Of a stretch of DNA of 59,190 nt, positions 11,071 through 59,190 are shown in pieces. The translations under genes and the position numbers were made by a program. Numbering within the stretch: position 1 is the first letter of the stretch; each line of letters opens with the position of its first letter. The stretch spans positions 1-59,190 of the forward strand of contig CANREG010000008.1 in NCBI GenBank assembly GCA_947629565.1, given 5' to 3'. The notes under the pieces were generated by a model. That model searched no databases. It saw only the letters and a program-made list of their open reading frames with translations, and was not told where the DNA came from. The DNA comes from an uncultured Lachnospiraceae bacterium. GTDB taxonomy: Bacteria; Bacillota; Clostridia; Lachnospirales; Lachnospiraceae.

Positions 11071-11150
11071 CACTTTCCAACCAACTTCCTGCCAATCTCT
11101 GCTAGTAAAATATTGTAGCACAAATCCCGGCAGATTGCCACCCCGGACGC

Positions 11151-11188
11151 AAAAAGACTACAGCCGGATTTCTCCATCTGTAGTCCCT
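11151..11188 (-). terminator. Terminator between the deacetylase gene and folC
   Basis: On the minus strand GGGACTACAG pairs with CTGTAGTC around a 14-nt loop, followed by T5. It ends the polysaccharide deacetylase transcript before folC. Confidence 0.8.
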
Positions 11189-11232
11189 TATTCTGTCTCA
11201 CTATTATTTGTATCTTGCGGCATTACCCGCGC

Positions 11233-12246
11233 TTACTCCTCCACTGAATTGCAGGATACATGCTGAATTAACGGAGTATCCGCATCAATCGGCAGAATTT
11301 CATACCCCTCGCTTTTCAGCGTATCAATCAAAAGCTGCAAGGACTCCACAGTGGTGTGGGTTGTCTGCAAATCATGCATCAGCACTATGGAATCATCATT
11401 TTTCTCCACATCATTCATAATGTTGTCTACCAACTGTTCTGGCGCAAGTCCCGAAGTAACCGCATCTCCGCTCAAAGAATTCCAGTCGTAATAGTTAATG
11501 TTATGCTCGTTTAAATAAGCGATATAATTCTCAATAGGCAGCGGAGCCACATTGTTTGAACTGCCTCCCGGAAACCGGAAAATATTAGGTCTTACCCCCG
11601 TCACCTCATTGATTAAGTCGCTTAACTTCGTGAGCTCGTCCCCAAAACTGTCCACAGATTTATAAAAATCCTGATATACATGGGAATACGAATGCATACC
11701 GATCGTATGTCCCTCATCTACAATACGCCTGTAATAATCGTAATATTTTTCATCTCTGCCAATGACAAAAAAAGTAGCCTTCACATCATTTGCGGCAAGC
11801 ACATCCAAAATCTGTCCCGTATAAATGGATGGCCCGTCGTCAAAGGTTAAGTAAACCCGCTTGACGGCTTTGGCCTGTTTCTCATCTTTGGATTGCTCGT
11901 CTTTTGCCGTCTCCTCCCGGCTGTCTTTCCCGGTCAGTTTTTCCTCGGAAGACTTCTCCACGCTGGCGCTGCTTAACACTGTTCTGGTGGAGTCGGCAAG
12001 CTCCCCATTGTCCGCATCCTGCCCGCTCAAAAGCGCCTCCCGGCTGGACTGGAGCGTCAGATAATCGCCGCCATCCTCGCTTAGGGCATACTCCAATTCC
12101 TTTTCTAACTGGTTCACCCTGTACAGCAAAAATACGCTGGTTAAAATAGGCACGATTGTCATAATTAAAAAACCGTATATAATTACTTTTTTATAGAGCG
12201 CAATCCGCCGTCTTCTGGCAAGCTCCGCTCTTGTTATTTTGGCCAT
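11233..12246 (-). CDS. Membrane-anchored polysaccharide deacetylase (NodB family)
   Basis: The 337-residue protein has an N-terminal transmembrane anchor (about residues 20-42) and a charged, Ser-rich linker to about residue 125. A NodB domain follows, with motif 1 TFDDGPS, motif 2 HSYSH, motif 3 RFPGGSSNN and a late LMHDL. Family members remove acetyl groups from peptidoglycan GlcNAc/MurNAc or other glycans outside the cell with a metal ion. Orientation implies an extracellular catalytic domain. AGGTGG precedes the ATG. The substrate cannot be assigned. Confidence 0.9.
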   Translation of the reverse strand: MAKITRAELARRRRIALYKKVIIYGFLIMTIVPILTSVFLLYRVNQLEKELEYALSEDGGDYLTLQSSREALLSGQDADNGELADSTRTVLSSASVEKSSEEKLTGKDSREETAKDEQSKDEKQAKAVKRVYLTFDDGPSIYTGQILDVLAANDVKATFFVIGRDEKYYDYYRRIVDEGHTIGMHSYSHVYQDFYKSVDSFGDELTKLSDLINEVTGVRPNIFRFPGGSSNNVAPLPIENYIAYLNEHNINYYDWNSLSGDAVTSGLAPEQLVDNIMNDVEKNDDSIVLMHDLQTTHTTVESLQLLIDTLKSEGYEILPIDADTPLIQHVSCNSVEE

Positions 12247-12424
12247 TTTACCACCTGATTTCCCTTCTCCTTAAAATCTGGAAGTCTGCATCTAAAATAT
12301 AGTATCTGCCATACGGTCGCTGTTCATTCATCTGAATAAAAATGCCAATTTTTCTAAGCGTTGTTATTATAAAAAAAAGATTTTTTTTCGTCAAGCGGTG
12401 ATTTTCTGTATATTAGGTCAATTT

Positions 12425-12454
12425 TTGTCATTTTGAATACACTATTAATATAGG
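12425..12454 (+). promoter_or_regulatory. Candidate promoter of the ABC importer operon
   Basis: TTGTCA (12425-12430), an 18-bp spacer and TATAGG (12449-12454) lie 20 bp before the first gene. The 218-bp divergent gap from the deacetylase gene also holds an A-run/T-run hairpin at about 12370-12391. No riboswitch was recognised. Confidence 0.4.
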
Positions 12455-12473
12455 ATAAAAGGAAGTGAAAAAA

Positions 12474-13256
12474 TTGGGAATACCACTGCTAGAATTTTTT
12501 AATGTAAATTATTCTTATCATACAATATCTTGTGAAACTCAGACACTTAAGGACATTTCATTCAATTTAAATAAAAATGAATTTATTTCATTTGTGGGTC
12601 CCAGTGGCTGCGGCAAGACTACACTGTTAAATCTGACTGCCGGACTGCTTCCCCTATCCTCCGGCGCCATACGGATCAACGGAAAACCCAGGGAAGAATC
12701 CGACGTCAACATCGGCTATATGCTGCAAAAAGACCACCTGTTAGAGTGGCGCACCATTTACCGGAACCTTACCTTAGGACTGGAAATCCAGAAAAAGAAA
12801 GACGCCTCCCATATTGAAATGATGGAAGATCTCTTAAAAACCTATGGCCTGTGGGATTTTCGCAACGCTTATCCCAGACAGCTTTCCGGCGGTATGCGCC
12901 AGCGGGCGGCCTTAATTCGGACTCTGGCCCTGTCTCCGGAAATCCTTCTGCTTGACGAGCCTTTCAGCGCGCTGGATTACCAAACCCGGCTGAATGTGTC
13001 CAATGATATCGGTTCCATTATCAAGGAAAAGGGCATCAGCACCCTTTTAGTCACCCATGATTTAGCCGAGGCGATCTCCATGGCCGACAAGGTCATTGTC
13101 CTTTCTAAGCGCCCCGGAACCATTAAATCCATTATTCCAATTGAATTTGGCGATAACCGCCGCACACCGGAAAGCGCAAGAAACGCTCCGGAATTTAACA
13201 AATATTATAATCAGATATGGGAGGCTATACATGATGAAAACGAAGACTTCAGTTAA
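12474..13256 (+). CDS. ABC transporter ATP-binding protein (NitT/TauT type)
   Basis: The ATPase has Walker A GPSGCGKTTLL, signature LSGGMRQRAALIRTLA, Walker B EILLLDEPFSALD and H-loop LLVTHD. It resembles the SsuB/TauB/NrtD ATPases that power import of sulfonates, nitrate, pyrimidines or thiamine precursors. A GTG at 12465 opens the frame, but AAGGAAG overlaps it. The TTG at 12474 has proper spacing and gives 260 residues. Its end overlaps the permease start by 26 bp. No substrate-binding protein is adjacent, so the substrate is unknown. Confidence 0.9.
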   Translation: MGIPLLEFFNVNYSYHTISCETQTLKDISFNLNKNEFISFVGPSGCGKTTLLNLTAGLLPLSSGAIRINGKPREESDVNIGYMLQKDHLLEWRTIYRNLTLGLEIQKKKDASHIEMMEDLLKTYGLWDFRNAYPRQLSGGMRQRAALIRTLALSPEILLLDEPFSALDYQTRLNVSNDIGSIIKEKGISTLLVTHDLAEAISMADKVIVLSKRPGTIKSIIPIEFGDNRRTPESARNAPEFNKYYNQIWEAIHDENEDFS

Positions 13257-53678: not shown

Positions 53679-53715
53679 TGCTTACATCAAAATACAATCA
53701 GACCTTGTATCTGAC

Positions 53716-53854
53716 TCTTCTTCCATCCAGACTATACTGTCGGCACCGGAATCTCACCGGTTCCTGCCTTGCGGCTCGCGGGCTGATGAAGCTTGCGGGA
53801 CTGCTCCCCGCTGTTCAAATACCGCCGGTGGGGACTTGCACCCCGCCCCGAAGA
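53716..53854 (-). promoter_or_regulatory. FMN riboswitch (RFN element)
   Basis: On the minus strand the conserved aptamer is clear: TCTTCGGGGCGGGGTG at the 5' side, CCCCACCGGCGGTA, AGCCCGCGAGCC, CCGGTGAGATTCCGGTGCCG and GTCTGGATGGAAGAAGA. FMN binding favours the terminator at 53645-53678 and switches off ribD-ribE-ribBA. Confidence 0.96.
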
Positions 53855-53874
53855 TGATTTGCTTTCCGTAGGTC

Positions 53875-53942: not shown

Positions 53943-55391
53943 TTATGTTGTTCCATTAATAACATCAATCCCCTTTTCTTTATCTTCTGAAAAAACCACC
54001 GCATATACCTTATCACGCAACGCAACATAATTTTTAGCAGAATTATACCTTGATCCTCGTCCCACATTTCCCTTTATTATTGTTTCCCCATCCAAAATAA
54101 TCCCAAATCCACGACATATGCCATTATCATCTACCATAATGGCACCGTCGATTGATGCCAATCCTTGCATCAAAGATAAGTTTTCAGTTTCGTTCAAATC
54201 AAGTTCATCTATCATCATTCCTTTATGTAGAGAAGATAATCGTTTTACCTCCTGCTTAATAACTTCAGTCTCACCTACGATCATCAGCGCTCCATGAGGA
54301 CATTCATATAAATGTTCAAAAACTAACTCAAATGTTGCTTTGTATTCCTTCCGAATTAAATCAATCTGCTTCACCTTTTCGGAAATTTTTGATTCAAAAT
54401 GCTGTTTATTAATAGAATAAACACCTTCTCGATATTCCAAAATAACCTCCCCACGGGCACAAAGCCGCCATTCGCCTCTTCCACAGAACTCCAAAATATA
54501 TCGTACCGATTCTTTACATAATGTTTGTTCAGTTGCCACAGCTATAATCGGACACTTACTTTCCACCCCTATCCGAGCCAACAAAACATTCCCATTTTTG
54601 CATGTTTCAAGCATTTTCCGCACACTAGATATATTTTTATCCTTACTCATATCTTTGGCAGAAGCATTTTCTTCATTTATCCATACTATGCCTTTTTTTC
54701 TCTGTTCCTTAAGAACCTTACATATATTTTCATCTGCAAAGTAAATACTGGCACAAACTTCACTCCTCTCATAATACTGGTAAGATATTTTTCTAATTAT
54801 ATCTTCTGAGGGAATTGATAACTCACAAAATGCTTTCTTTACATATGCATTAATAATATCAAAGTTAAAAATTTTCTCCTTTTCCTGCCAAACGGATATC
54901 TCCGTTGTATCTAAGTAATCAAGGCTATCAAAGCATTTTTGCAAAAAATCTAACAATACTTCTGCCATAATTTTTTCTGATATCCCCGACTCCGTATCCA
55001 ATACAACCCCGAACATTACACTAAATTCGCTAATAAACTCTGTTGACGCATTATACAAAACTTTAGAATCATTAGAAAAAATAGGGATACCCTCCTCTTG
55101 TTTTCTTATGTATTCTTTGATTTTTTGTGAATCTCCTTCAACTTCAATAACCCGATTGAATTTTATCTGCATTGGTTTTATTTTGTCATTCAACGAGCCA
55201 CTTGCCTCATTTAAGGATTCATTCCAAACAAACAACTCTAAATTTATTAAATTTGCAAACAGCTTTTGCATAACCTCCGATACACTTTTTGTTTTAAGAT
55301 AATTAATAAATCCAGCCGTAAAATTTTCTAATTTATTTTTAAGATCATTTCTAAATTCTTGTTTGTCTTGTTTGTCAATTTCAGCTTTCAT
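53943..55391 (-). CDS. Divergent DisA_N/diadenylate-cyclase-like domain protein
   Basis: From the ATG at 55391 (AGGAGA upstream) the protein has 482 residues and no membrane segment. Residues 365-475 match the DAC (DisA_N) fold: CPHGALMIVG, then LASIDGAIMVD with the DGA motif (415-417), a Gly-rich strand GFGIILDGE, and YAVVFSED at the end. The second DAC motif, normally RHR, reads RGSRYNSA (445-452), as in divergent DAC clades outside core c-di-AMP synthesis. Residues 1-360 are unrecognised and could be a sensor. The gene starts 28 bp after a metallopeptidase-like gene and is AT-rich. Activity is inferred: it may make or bind a nucleotide signal. Confidence 0.7.
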   Translation of the reverse strand: MKAEIDKQDKQEFRNDLKNKLENFTAGFINYLKTKSVSEVMQKLFANLINLELFVWNESLNEASGSLNDKIKPMQIKFNRVIEVEGDSQKIKEYIRKQEEGIPIFSNDSKVLYNASTEFISEFSVMFGVVLDTESGISEKIMAEVLLDFLQKCFDSLDYLDTTEISVWQEKEKIFNFDIINAYVKKAFCELSIPSEDIIRKISYQYYERSEVCASIYFADENICKVLKEQRKKGIVWINEENASAKDMSKDKNISSVRKMLETCKNGNVLLARIGVESKCPIIAVATEQTLCKESVRYILEFCGRGEWRLCARGEVILEYREGVYSINKQHFESKISEKVKQIDLIRKEYKATFELVFEHLYECPHGALMIVGETEVIKQEVKRLSSLHKGMMIDELDLNETENLSLMQGLASIDGAIMVDDNGICRGFGIILDGETIIKGNVGRGSRYNSAKNYVALRDKVYAVVFSEDKEKGIDVINGTT

Positions 55392-55419
55392 GATTCTCTC
55401 CTGTTTCTTCTTTACCAAC

Positions 55420-58059
55420 TTATAGTATATTATCACGGGATTCCCAAATAATTTTCAGCATTTCTGCTATCTGTTCCTCTGCAGAAACATCCTGTAAACC
55501 AGACTTTCTTTGCGTACTTGAATATTCTTTAAAAAATGTGCGTATCTTTTTCATATCATCTGATGGTTCTATATAATCCTCATAAAATTGCTCACTACAA
55601 AGCATTAAATAACTCCAAACCTCGTTCACAACATCAGCATCACGCAAAATATTTCTCAATTCCTTGTGATATTTATCTGGTTCAACTGGCTTTCTACGAT
55701 TCATTTCGCAAGTCAGTAATACCCTTTCAATCAGTTTTTCGGCATCTGTTTGTTTCTTTTTATTTACTTTACCTTCAAAAAAATCAGAAATAAAATTCTT
55801 CTCCAGTTGCTTGGTTCTAATACAACACTGCAAAACAATTCCTATTCGATATAATATATCTGATCGATAACAGTCCTCCAATTTCCAATTTTGTCGTTCA
55901 ACTTCATTTAGTAAACCTTCGACATACTCTATGGCATTCAAATTTAACACAAGAATTGCCATCAAATCCGCAAATCCTTCTTCATAAATCATAGACAATA
56001 CATCCATTGTGTTTCTTGAAGACATAAGTGTACTGCCGGATTCGTGGATAACTATATATCGCTCTGAAGCCTGCTTAATACAGGAAAAAATTTCTTCTGA
56101 ATTCTCCTGGTCGTATAAAACTGGTCCAAATACATTTTTCAAACCAAATTGAACTATATCAATCATTGCCATCTGAATATTTGCCTGTAGCTGAGTTATA
56201 TGTTTTCCATAGATTTTATTTTTTTCAACCACATGCGTATAGTCATAATCCCTACTTTTATTTTCTATCTTCGACACATAGTCCCATTCCAATTTTCTTT
56301 CGAGTGCTCTGCGTAGCATAGTTTCCATTCGTCGTTGAACAGTCTCCCATGCACAATCCTCTTGGCATACTTTTTCTTCCAAGCACCACCCCTTAACATA
56401 ACTTACATAAATATGCGAAAAATTCTTTAAAATTGAATCATATCTAAATACATCTCTCAAACGATATCTTCGACCTACATAATGGGCAGTTTCGTGTGTG
56501 AGTATAATCATCATATCATGTAGATTATAAAGACAATACTCTGGGATTTCTACCTTCATAAGCCTCTTTTGATTGGACACCGAAGAATATAATTCATCTA
56601 CATAAACTACATTACTTATTCCCGGTGCCACTAAAAACTCATATTCACAAGAATCATCTTCTGCATCAAAAGCAGAAAGGATCCTTTTAACAAAATTAAT
56701 ATGGGCACTATAAAAAGCAATAATCTTAGCTGGCACCTCGTATATTTTAGAGTTAAAATCTATCGCTTGAATTGAATGTCTGTCCGAAGTCAGAGAACCT
56801 TGCACATACATACAAAAAGCTTTCAAGAAGTCATAGTAGTCTCGCATATACAAAGTTCCCAGCTTCAAATTCTCTCGCATTAAGCAAAGCAAAAATTTTA
56901 TGGGGGACAAAATAGAGTAAAAGACATAATCATTAAACAGTCCCCCGGCATATCGTGGCACAGAATTCAATATAATATTAATTTCTTTAAAATTCTTGTC
57001 GGGAGATTTTTCTTGTATTTCCCTCAATATTTCCATCGAGTCGTTCTTATGTGAAATATATTTTTCCCCCAGTATTTTGGAGTTTTCTGAAATCTCCTTA
57101 AATTTCTGCTCAGTTATACCTATCTTTCCCTTAAAAGAAATCTCACTATTTTTAGATCCGTCCAGTATATTAGGTAATTTTTCCTGAATCGTAGTTGTTG
57201 TTCCTGCCCAAACAGCACGAAATTCTTTATTTGAATTGCAAAATATCCCTTCTGTTTTACTGTATAAAGAAAGAAAATCTCCCCAACCTATATCCTTTAT
57301 AATAATCTGTTCATCATCAACCCCTAAAACAGCCCTTATCTGCGCATCAACCCCGTCAATTCGATCATTTATTGCTTGCACTAATTTTGTAGCATCCTTA
57401 TTTGGTTCTTTTATAATTTTAATATAAACGCACTCAATCTTTTTCTGATTTAATTGCATTCGCTGTTTGTCTTTCATGTCATCTATCCATTTATGCCTTA
57501 CTGCCATGATTGAAAAACTATTTTTCAAGTAGCAAACTGATTCGGAATCCACAATCAAATTCATCCCCTGATTCATCGCATGAATCAATTGAGCTCCATT
57601 CTGATAACTCTGCGCTTTTATTACAAGAAACAAATCAGAATTACCATATGTAAGATATGTCATAATCTTCATTTCGCTACCTAATGAAAGTTTCTCTTCA
57701 AGCTTACACTTATTATTCCTATCCCAAAATGTAATCCTATCTCCTTCACACTGTATTCTGGTAAAAAATAAAAAAGGATATTCTGGATTTTCTTCCCAAA
57801 ATTCCTTTTCGGCTTCTATATCGCCAAAGCGAATACCATATATCCGTTCTGCATTATATGTGCCTGACAAAGTTTTTTGGAATTCTGTATGTTCTTTCCT
57901 TATACAATCCAAAATCTCTCCATCATTTTCTGCAATATTATTCCCAACATCAATTCCATCTATAGTTCCAAAAGCACAATACTCCCAACTATGCTCCTCC
58001 ATAATAGCTGGAAGAAAATTACTATAAAATGTAAATACTCGACATATATTTTTATCCAT
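55420..58059 (-). CDS. Large protein with HExxH metallopeptidase signature
   Basis: From the ATG at 58059 (AGGAGG upstream) the protein has 879 residues. It contains MIILTHETAHYVGRR (HExxH, His522/Glu523/His526) and, about 170 residues later, SMIYEEGFADLMAIL, whose Glu (about 693-694) would be the third zinc ligand of a gluzincin-type site. The first ~400 residues are unrecognised; the start (FYSNFLPAIMEEHSWEY, then FGTIDGIDVG) looks like a separate sensor or effector domain. There is no signal peptide or membrane helix. It is transcribed just before the DAC-like gene in an AT-rich block beside IS remnants. Confidence 0.7.
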   Translation of the reverse strand: MDKNICRVFTFYSNFLPAIMEEHSWEYCAFGTIDGIDVGNNIAENDGEILDCIRKEHTEFQKTLSGTYNAERIYGIRFGDIEAEKEFWEENPEYPFLFFTRIQCEGDRITFWDRNNKCKLEEKLSLGSEMKIMTYLTYGNSDLFLVIKAQSYQNGAQLIHAMNQGMNLIVDSESVCYLKNSFSIMAVRHKWIDDMKDKQRMQLNQKKIECVYIKIIKEPNKDATKLVQAINDRIDGVDAQIRAVLGVDDEQIIIKDIGWGDFLSLYSKTEGIFCNSNKEFRAVWAGTTTTIQEKLPNILDGSKNSEISFKGKIGITEQKFKEISENSKILGEKYISHKNDSMEILREIQEKSPDKNFKEINIILNSVPRYAGGLFNDYVFYSILSPIKFLLCLMRENLKLGTLYMRDYYDFLKAFCMYVQGSLTSDRHSIQAIDFNSKIYEVPAKIIAFYSAHINFVKRILSAFDAEDDSCEYEFLVAPGISNVVYVDELYSSVSNQKRLMKVEIPEYCLYNLHDMMIILTHETAHYVGRRYRLRDVFRYDSILKNFSHIYVSYVKGWCLEEKVCQEDCAWETVQRRMETMLRRALERKLEWDYVSKIENKSRDYDYTHVVEKNKIYGKHITQLQANIQMAMIDIVQFGLKNVFGPVLYDQENSEEIFSCIKQASERYIVIHESGSTLMSSRNTMDVLSMIYEEGFADLMAILVLNLNAIEYVEGLLNEVERQNWKLEDCYRSDILYRIGIVLQCCIRTKQLEKNFISDFFEGKVNKKKQTDAEKLIERVLLTCEMNRRKPVEPDKYHKELRNILRDADVVNEVWSYLMLCSEQFYEDYIEPSDDMKKIRTFFKEYSSTQRKSGLQDVSAEEQIAEMLKIIWESRDNIL

Positions 58060-58123: not shown

Positions 58124-58547
58124 ATATTTTTCCTACAGTGTAAGATTACAATACATGTGTTACATTTTAATAATTAAATACTGGAAAAACTTCTTTTGTG
58201 TTATAACAGACAGTATGTTTACCACTGGAAAAATTGTTATGATGGTACATGGAACTCCCTTTGAATTGGGACTGGCTAAACAAGGTATCTAACATAAAAA
58301 AATCAGACCGTTTACACCTCGCCACAATGGTAAAATGAATCGAAACCATCGCAAAGACAATGAGTGTTTTTATGCCACCCATACCTTTTACTCATTTGAG
58401 GAGAATTAACCTTATATAAAGATTATAACCATTTTCCGATGAGACCTTTAGGATGGAAGTCCCCTCAAGCTGGTCTAAATGATTTTATTCATTATAGTGT
58501 AACATATGTTTGACAAGCCTATATAAACATTAAATATTTTCCTACAG
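58124..58547. repeat. 14-bp direct repeats flanking the IS remnant
   Basis: ATATTTTTCCTACAG (58124-58138) and ATATTTTCCTACAG (58534-58547) bracket the decayed transposase fragment. A related inverted copy (CTGTAGGATTTAAATA) is at 59130-59145. They may be target duplications or element ends. Confidence 0.5.
58203..58502 (+). pseudogene. C-terminal remnant of a DDE (IS3/IS481-like) transposase
   Basis: Plus-strand frames encode ITDSMFTTGKIV-MMVHGTPFELGLAKQG, then IRPFTPRHNGKMNRNHRKDN and ECFYATHTFYSFEE. After a frameshift, FPMRPLGWKSPQAGLNDFIH follows. This is the C-terminal rve/DDE pattern of IS3/IS481-type transposases (TD...EF, HxxIRPxTPxHNGKVERxHR). In-frame stops (58290 region onward) and at least one frameshift show it is dead. 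No N-terminal half precedes it. Confidence 0.85.
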
Positions 58548-58548
58548 C

Positions 58549-58752
58549 TTATAGACTTAATGTTTGTATATTCTCAATCACATCATGAATGTCAATACCC
58601 TCAAAATCTGAATCTTCTTCTTTATCTGAAATAGTCAATTCCATAATATCAACAAATGATGTGAACTTCTTTTCCTTGGGAAAAAGCATCCATGTATCTT
58701 TATCTGCTTTTTCATAAACATTGCCGGCCGTTCTTGGTATGCGTTCTTCCAT
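58549..58752 (-). CDS. Small acidic protein of unknown function
   Basis: From the ATG at 58752 (AGGTGGAAT upstream) the protein has 67 residues: MEERIPRTAGNVYEKADKDT, WMLFPKEKKFTSFVDIM, then an acidic end (SDKEEDSDFEGIDIHDVIEN). I do not recognise it. There is no signal peptide or membrane helix. It lies between two IS remnants in AT-rich DNA. It reads as a real gene because of its ribosome binding site and ordinary codon composition, but it could be cargo or a fragment. Confidence 0.55.
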   Translation of the reverse strand: MEERIPRTAGNVYEKADKDTWMLFPKEKKFTSFVDIMELTISDKEEDSDFEGIDIHDVIENIQTLSL

Positions 58753-58803
58753 TATTCCACCTAACAACATAAAACCATTATGTGTCCCTTTCTTTTATAA
58801 GGT

Positions 58804-58850: not shown

Positions 58851-59062
58851 AATATGCATGTCCACCATATATGCATATCTTCCATGCCCTTAGTTGATTA
58901 TTTTACTGTATTAAAATATACTTGTCAAGACATTTTTCCTTTCGTTTTTCATTTTTTTGTAGAGTTACAATTGATGTGACACTTTTCACTATACAAAAAC
59001 GGCTGAGTCCTATAGAATGTTAATCACCACAAAAACGTTCTAAGAAAGGAAACTCAACCGTC

Positions 59063-59119
59063 ATGAATATTATAACACATTCACAACGATATTTGCCACA
59101 TGAATTTAATACCAGATAG
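59063..59119 (+). pseudogene. N-terminal fragment of an IS transposase
   Basis: After AAGAAAGGAAACTCAACCGTC an ATG begins MNIITHSQRYLPHEFNTR, the start of a common IS481/IS3-like transposase, then a stop. Upstream, TGTGACACTTTTCAC (58976-58990) may be the element's terminal repeat. The rest of the element is missing. It could be the lost 5' part of the family represented at 58203-58502, but the order is reversed. Nothing else is recognised to the window end. Confidence 0.65.
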
Positions 59120-59190
59120 CGTAAATTTACTGTAGGATTTAAATAAGCAGAATAAGCCAACGATATTAAAATATTAGAACTTTAGTACCA

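Follow-up and report, generated by a model that had tools for sequence, protein, structure and literature searches.

The 59,190-nucleotide contig CANREG010000008.1 of an uncultured Lachnospiraceae bacterium (assembly GCA_947629565.1), hereafter referred to as the window, carries close to its end a two-gene operon encoding an 879-residue protein, here called HEX, and a 482-residue protein with a DACNH-like region followed by a DAC domain. Both genes lie on the minus strand in the order HEX then DAC and are separated by 28 bp, and the DAC gene starts with an ATG preceded by an AGGAG-like site. An earlier note, made from the sequence alone, had described this operon, with a divergent DAC domain carrying DGA and RGSRYNSA in the smaller protein and with HETAH and a later EEGFAD in the larger one; a check of the open reading frames (ORFs) and a profile search located all of these elements (Table 1). 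The HEX-DAC pair is conserved across genomes, and HEX also occurs beside other kinds of partner.

HEX is large and appears to be soluble, no membrane helix having been detected in it by hydropathy, and it carries an invariant metallopeptidase-like site of the form HExxH...ExxxD. Across 23 aligned members, which share 14 to 36% identity with the window protein, residues H522, E523, H526, R539, E694, D698, R738 and Y817 are identical in every sequence. Three proteins were left out of this alignment and of the tree derived from it, namely two HEX proteins each split into two ORFs (L051 and L052) and a short one of 299 residues near a contig start that contains no HExxH (L055). An HExxH motif alone is weak evidence, since one arises in 423 of 20000 shuffles of the HEX protein; the gluzincin-type combination of HExxH with a downstream glutamate was found conserved in 23/23 members, and such invariance would be expected of a working HExxH + E metallopeptidase. 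In M48 peptidases the ExxxD motif supplies the third ligand, and HEX likewise has a later ExxxD after its HExxH. It differs from M48-like gluzincins in lacking a significant profile match, in its size and the absence of a membrane helix, in its HExxHxxG form accompanied by an arginine cluster, and in the 167 residues that separate the last histidine from the glutamate. The window HEX belongs to no Pfam (apart from one irrelevant match, E 0.48), NCBIfam or PADLOC family, and its relatives yielded no consistent families when 10 members were searched against Pfam and 23 against NCBIfam. PADLOC-DB 2.0.0 returned no family for either window protein at E up to 1, nor did any PADLOC model match the three HEX proteins that were run. 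The best PDB match of HEX, to RNase L (E 0.022 with 10 alignment rows and 0.0038 with 23), falls on a helical, charged stretch around E694 and is probably due to chance.

The DAC domain scores 29.4 bits against PF02457, above the Pfam cut-off of 27, and 7/9 members of the first DAC alignment match this profile at E up to 1. The DACNH-like region, weak in the window protein, stands out clearly in some of its relatives (best E 2.2e-10) and is likewise matched by seven of the nine members at E up to 1. Beyond these two, no Pfam domain was found in the window protein. Among the 13 HEX-linked DACs, D415, G416, G446, R448, N450, S468 and D470 are identical throughout and E469 is kept in 12. The Asp-Gly of DGA, the Arg of GxR and the Ser-Glu pair are presumably the catalytic residues, and the window DAC is expected from its sequence to be an active enzyme. 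It resembles DisA and CdaA (PF02457) in keeping the D of DGA, the R of GxR and the SE of SE[DE], whereas it differs from them in carrying RYNS for RHR, in showing no membrane helix by hydropathy and in being sporadic rather than core. The RHR motif reads R-Y-N here, with the N present in 13/13 HEX-linked DACs, and the form G[SA]R[YFH]N[ST] is common to all 20 DACs compared; the replacement is not special to the window protein. In the host genome (85% complete), PF02457 matches only one further protein, which is CdaA-like and carries GTRHRAA. Phage records contained no match to the window DAC. An IMG/VR contig (L070, 5642-8239, plus strand) encodes an 865-residue DAC relative with a strong DACNH match (E 2.7e-23), TPR-like matches and the motifs DGA and RGARYNSA; it is not matched by PF02457 at E up to 0.1, and no HEX was seen there.

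Table 1. Features of the HEX-DAC operon and its immediate surroundings in the window.
Feature	Position	Strand	Basis or conservation
HEX gene, 879 aa, first gene of operon	55420..58059	-	ORF call
HETAH, residues 522-526, predicted zinc-binding and catalytic motif	56482..56496	-	H, E, H in 23/23
R533-x-R535-xxx-R539 cluster just after HETAH	56443..56463	-	R in 22, 20 and 23 of 23
E694-GFA-D698 (ExxxD), candidate third zinc ligand	55966..55980	-	E, D in 23/23
DAC gene, 482-aa DACNH-DAC protein, second gene of operon	53943..55391	-	ORF call
DACNH-like sensor domain, residues 197-272	54576..54803	-	weak here, E 0.074
DAC catalytic domain, residues 360-471	53979..54314	-	PF02457, E 6.5e-7
DGA motif, residues 415-417	54141..54149	-	D, G in 13/13, A in 9/13 HEX-linked DACs
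RGSRYNSA motif, residues 445-452	54036..54059	-	G446, R448, N450 in 13/13 HEX-linked DACs
SED motif, residues 468-470	53982..53990	-	S in 13, E in 12, D in 13 of 13
FMN riboswitch	53711-53859	-	RF00050, 100.2 bits; directly downstream of DAC gene
Best promoter-like site upstream of operon, TTGACA-17-TAAAAT	58900..58928	-	consensus match only
Repeated element reaching contig end, possible IS remnant	58955..59190	.	copies on other contigs

Conserved Pairing and Exchange of Partners

Conservation of the pair in other genomes, a check which the earlier note had proposed, was examined in 397 genomes of the host family, Lachnospiraceae, with the DAC as the only query and HEX not used. All nine full-length DACs of this type adjoin a HEX gene, a result that is free of seed bias because the search used the DAC alone. 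A tenth hit, in genome G165, is a remnant in a 63-residue frame and was excluded from the count. This decayed DAC remnant retains a DGA...ILDG stretch (L057, 6920-7070), and no HEX was found in the fetched stretch around it.

HEX itself occurs in 16/397 family genomes, and in all 16 it adjoins a gene for a DAC (9), a membrane protein (4), a SIR2 protein (2) or an FRG protein (1). It was further found in 2 of 26 genomes of the genus and in 2 of 391 genomes of a class sample, the window's own included in both cases and the second class member coming from another family, and in the window's own genome only among 383 genomes of a phylum sample. The class and phylum samples overlap in part with the family sample. 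As the class sample contributed one further genome and the phylum sample none, HEX is found mostly in this family as far as sampled, L066-L068 being loci without a family assignment. No HEX was found in a single-sequence scan of 72,556 plasmid records or in a first single-sequence scan of the genome contig collection, and none of 109 pattern matches in IMG/VR viral contigs was confirmed. A second scan of the genome contig collection gave at least nine HEX loci, eight of them new (L065 and L017 are one contig and were counted once). Together with the 16 loci of the family, one more from the genus and one other from the class, at least 26 HEX loci are known, L051, L052 and L055 being counted among them.

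At each of these 26 loci, HEX has an adjoining partner on the same strand, with gaps of -59 to 364 bp. The partner is a DAC at 13 loci (the window, L014-L021 and L061-L064), a membrane protein at nine (L013, L050-L052, L054 and L066-L069), a SIR2 protein at three (L053, L055 and L060) and an FRG protein at one (L056), shares in which the DAC is inflated because nine of the ten HEX seed proteins were DAC-paired. Pfam assigns SIR2_2 to the SIR2 partners (E 5.9e-17, 3.8e-10 and 2.8e-16) and FRG to the FRG partner (E 5.6e-16), while all nine membrane partners show three to four hydropathy peaks within their N-terminal ~170 residues, followed by a soluble remainder. No docking region shared by the DAC, SIR2 and membrane partners was found by hhalign.

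The exchange of these partners is evident from the HEX tree, which was drawn with a midpoint root. The DAC-paired clade of the window joins the membrane-paired L013 and L050 (support 99/98), whereas a second DAC-paired clade stands apart from it, and a single clade of all DAC-paired HEX proteins is rejected by the approximately unbiased (AU) test (p-AU 0.00207). The DAC-paired HEX proteins are therefore not one group and partners have been exchanged, which the sequences make near certain; the places of L056, L016, L054 and L066 are unsure due to their long branches. Gene order follows the same division, as HEX comes first in six DAC pairs and the DAC in seven, matching the two HEX clades. The membrane gene is first in 9/9 of its pairs, and HEX is first in all four SIR2 and FRG pairs. 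Furthermore, L013 stems from the window's own genus, so that the DAC and membrane kinds both occur within one genus.

A third gene is present in two of the DAC-paired loci. In L018, a two-helix SLATT_5 membrane protein (11117-11773, plus strand; E 3.8e-10) follows DAC-HEX and overlaps HEX by 4 bp, and in L061 a 453-residue Macro-domain protein (11222-12583, plus strand; E 2e-17) begins 18 bp after the DAC of a HEX-DAC pair. SLATT proteins are described as predicted nucleotide-regulated membrane effectors (PMC9503650, available text). Both additional genes fit nucleotide signaling, yet they concern only 2/13 loci. An AAA_15 ATPase gene lies near the DAC-HEX pair of L019 (1813-3138, minus strand; E 4.4e-30) and may be another defense gene.

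Surroundings of the Operon

Directly downstream of the DAC gene, the FMN riboswitch leads a riboflavin operon (ribD-like and other genes, by ORF reading), which is a core locus, and the HEX-DAC pair lies immediately upstream of it. On the other side, 1.1 kb separates HEX from the end of the contig at 59190, which falls within the repeated element. Promoter-like sites in the region number 34 against 25.3 expected. Between the best of them and HEX lies a 73-residue ORF (58549-58770, minus strand) without a family match, which might be a short leading gene of the operon or might be spurious.

The AT-rich and foreign appearance which the earlier note had ascribed to the pair is reflected in GC contents of 0.336 for the pair and 0.306 from the pair to the contig end, compared with 0.467 for the remaining window, and at 23/26 HEX loci the pair has a higher AT content than the remainder of the stretch that was fetched. 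The insertion sequence (IS) remnants that had been suggested nearby are borne out as far as repeats are concerned, both upstream of HEX and at the contig end, whereas no transposase was identified. Stretches 99% identical to 58955-59190 occur on four other contigs (C14, C30, C94 and C22), two of them near contig starts (C14:119 and C30:2), and diverged copies (84-97% identical) of a segment immediately upstream of HEX, at about 58138-58205, are present on C30, C13 and C5. Such copies on multiple contigs fit repeated mobile elements.

Relation to Known Conflict Systems

The nearest named family of the window DAC is NF053872 (DS2_3_antiphage, NCBIfam), which matches residues 252-478 at E 1.7e-29 and all nine members of the first DAC alignment. 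This family represents the third protein of DS-2, found with DefensePredictor. According to the available text of PMC13092281, DS-2 is a three-gene antiphage system of the CBASS type consisting of a phospholipase, a CD-NTase and a DAC; two changes of predicted catalytic residues in the DAC each abolish defense, and 15 of 30 homologs of this DAC lie beside a CBASS. The same text (2026) states that DACs had not previously been validated in phage defense, and leaves unexplained why the tested DAC, itself located in a CBASS operon, is accompanied by a second cyclase.

The window DAC is thus kin to the DS-2 protein, with a DACNH region in its relatives, but its score of 102.7 lies well under the equivalog cut-off of 630, which was exceeded in none of 378 genomes scanned, and its partner is HEX. 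Neither a CD-NTase nor a phospholipase adjoins the pair, on a contig that ends 1.1 kb upstream of HEX. HEX-linked DACs furthermore group together against seven other DACs in the DAC tree, although the support is not strong (89/89). Among six plasmid DAC relatives, three stand beside a gene annotated as a nucleotidyltransferase in an incomplete gene table, and these carry the RG[SA]RYNS motif as well. A second connection is provided by the SIR2_2 and FRG partners at the four other HEX loci, the three of which that were run match PADLOC ThsA/SIR2 and PDC-S15 models; the partner in the window is a DAC instead. Both connections agree with the link to conflict systems that the earlier note had suspected.

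Interpretation and Alternatives

In known conflict systems, SIR2 and FRG domains consume NAD or serve as effectors (PMC9503650, available text). Since HEX is the constant component and such domains take the second place elsewhere, HEX would be a sensor or activator and the DAC one of several outputs. We infer this arrangement, in which the outputs are exchangeable, as the simplest account. It reverses the direction put forward in the earlier note, in which the DAC controls the peptidase; that direction sits poorly with the DAC being only one among four kinds of partner, of which two are effector or NAD-consuming domains elsewhere. We accordingly propose a two-gene conflict operon of modular design, its role most likely antiphage, in which HEX is constant and the second gene is an exchangeable output; this reading as a whole has, in our judgment, about an even chance of being right. 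It builds on the pairing, the partner exchange, the invariant HEX residues, the near-invariant DAC residues and the kinship of the DAC, and supplies a defensive role, a peptidase activity, an order of action between the proteins and a nucleotide product, all of which we infer.

In such an operon, HEX would act as the constant sensing and processing part, with the output provided here by DACNH-DAC and elsewhere by SIR2, FRG or the membrane protein with three to four helices. HEX would recognize an infection signal, or be switched on by it, and would by proteolysis or binding free the DAC from its own N-terminal sensor region. The freed DAC would then make cyclic di-AMP (c-di-AMP) or a related cyclic nucleotide, which could drive a membrane effector such as the product of the SLATT gene in one operon or, alternatively, harm the cell by upsetting c-di-AMP and ATP. 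A more specific version, which we regard as unlikely but worth stating, is that HEX represents a new class of immune switch, an infection-sensing metallopeptidase that fires the neighboring output by cutting it. The DAC would in that case be a killing or amplifying effector, acting through a c-di-AMP burst or an ATP drain in a host cell whose c-di-AMP must stay in bounds.

Several observations weigh against the proposed operon model. To our knowledge, no HEX protein has a reported activity or phenotype. Neither a profile nor a solved structure marks HEX as a peptidase: in Pfam, M48 matched one of 10 members at E 0.16 and WLM one of 10 at E 0.079, an NCBIfam search of 23 members at E up to 0.1 gave no peptidase family, and hhalign comparisons with four M48/M56-like relatives covered little beyond the motif (probability 3-4%). 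The identification of the DAC depends on Pfam and NCBIfam, as no solved DAC structure matched the window protein by sequence in PDB searches; at E up to 10, the best match was a 106-residue chain, 'NF6' (E 0.011), and none was a DAC. An hhalign comparison with the host's CdaA-like protein gave a probability of 0.4%, with one side a single sequence, and placed DGA, GxR and SE in register. Partner shares are biased by the DAC-paired seeds, SLATT is found in 1/13 DAC-paired loci, and the neighbors of HEX loci are mostly ordinary-looking by ORF reading. The neighbor listing over all 26 loci comprises 171 ORFs, from which 70 proteins of DAC-paired loci were scanned with PADLOC. At E up to 1e-5, 107 families were matched, and each of the 25 that were listed was matched by one or two proteins; the SLATT protein of L018 and the AAA protein of L019 were included and account for some matches. 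These matches are scattered, and nothing is drawn from them because the scan had no control.

The order of action can also be reversed. DACs are signal makers by family, and the catalytic residues are kept in the window protein, so that the DAC may sense infection and make a cyclic nucleotide which switches on HEX as an effector protease, with SIR2 or FRG enzymes supplying the signal at other loci. HEX would be large enough to accommodate a ligand-binding region, but no known nucleotide-sensor domain was found in it by Pfam, NCBIfam and PADLOC searches, and at 9/26 HEX loci the partner is a membrane protein, for which nucleotide synthesis is not an obvious role. The available text of PMC9503650 counts FRG and likely sirtuins among the enzymes that generate signals. 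Partner exchange is consequently no proof that the partners are outputs, given that SIR2/FRG enzymes can be signal makers, and a DAC acting upstream of HEX, though unlikely, is the most probable of these alternatives.

A guard arrangement has a published precedent in Panoptes, which employs decoy cyclic nucleotides (PMC12657218, available text). Applied here, a nucleotide constantly made by the DAC would silence HEX or a membrane effector, and its depletion by phage would unleash that effector. Both genes form one operon, as a guard pair would, but direct support is lacking, SIR2, FRG and membrane partners fit poorly, and the host's own CdaA-like DAC would mask a c-di-AMP decoy, all of which makes this explanation very improbable. 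The presence of that host DAC and the many loci among ordinary-looking genes speak for an accessory regulatory pair outside defense, for example one in which a protease links c-di-AMP with the state of the envelope or with osmotic conditions. Such a function is nevertheless improbable in view of the sporadic occurrence of HEX in family and genus, the AT-richness of most of the pairs, the exchange with SIR2 and FRG partners and the kinship of the DAC with a defense protein.

Searches of open-licence literature in PubMed Central found no description of a DAC-peptidase pair or of the HEX family. Already known are the kin of the DAC and the general plan of a sensor with an exchangeable effector, whereas HEX is an undescribed protein family at the core of the operon, without an entry in Pfam, NCBIfam or PADLOC. 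The DAC-HEX operon is carried by gut bacteria and looks like a modular bacterial defense system. Because these two-gene operons have no adjoining CD-NTase, the DAC's own contribution is directly testable in them. Since HEX adjoins four unrelated kinds of partner, a single HEX mechanism could explain several operons of gut bacteria.

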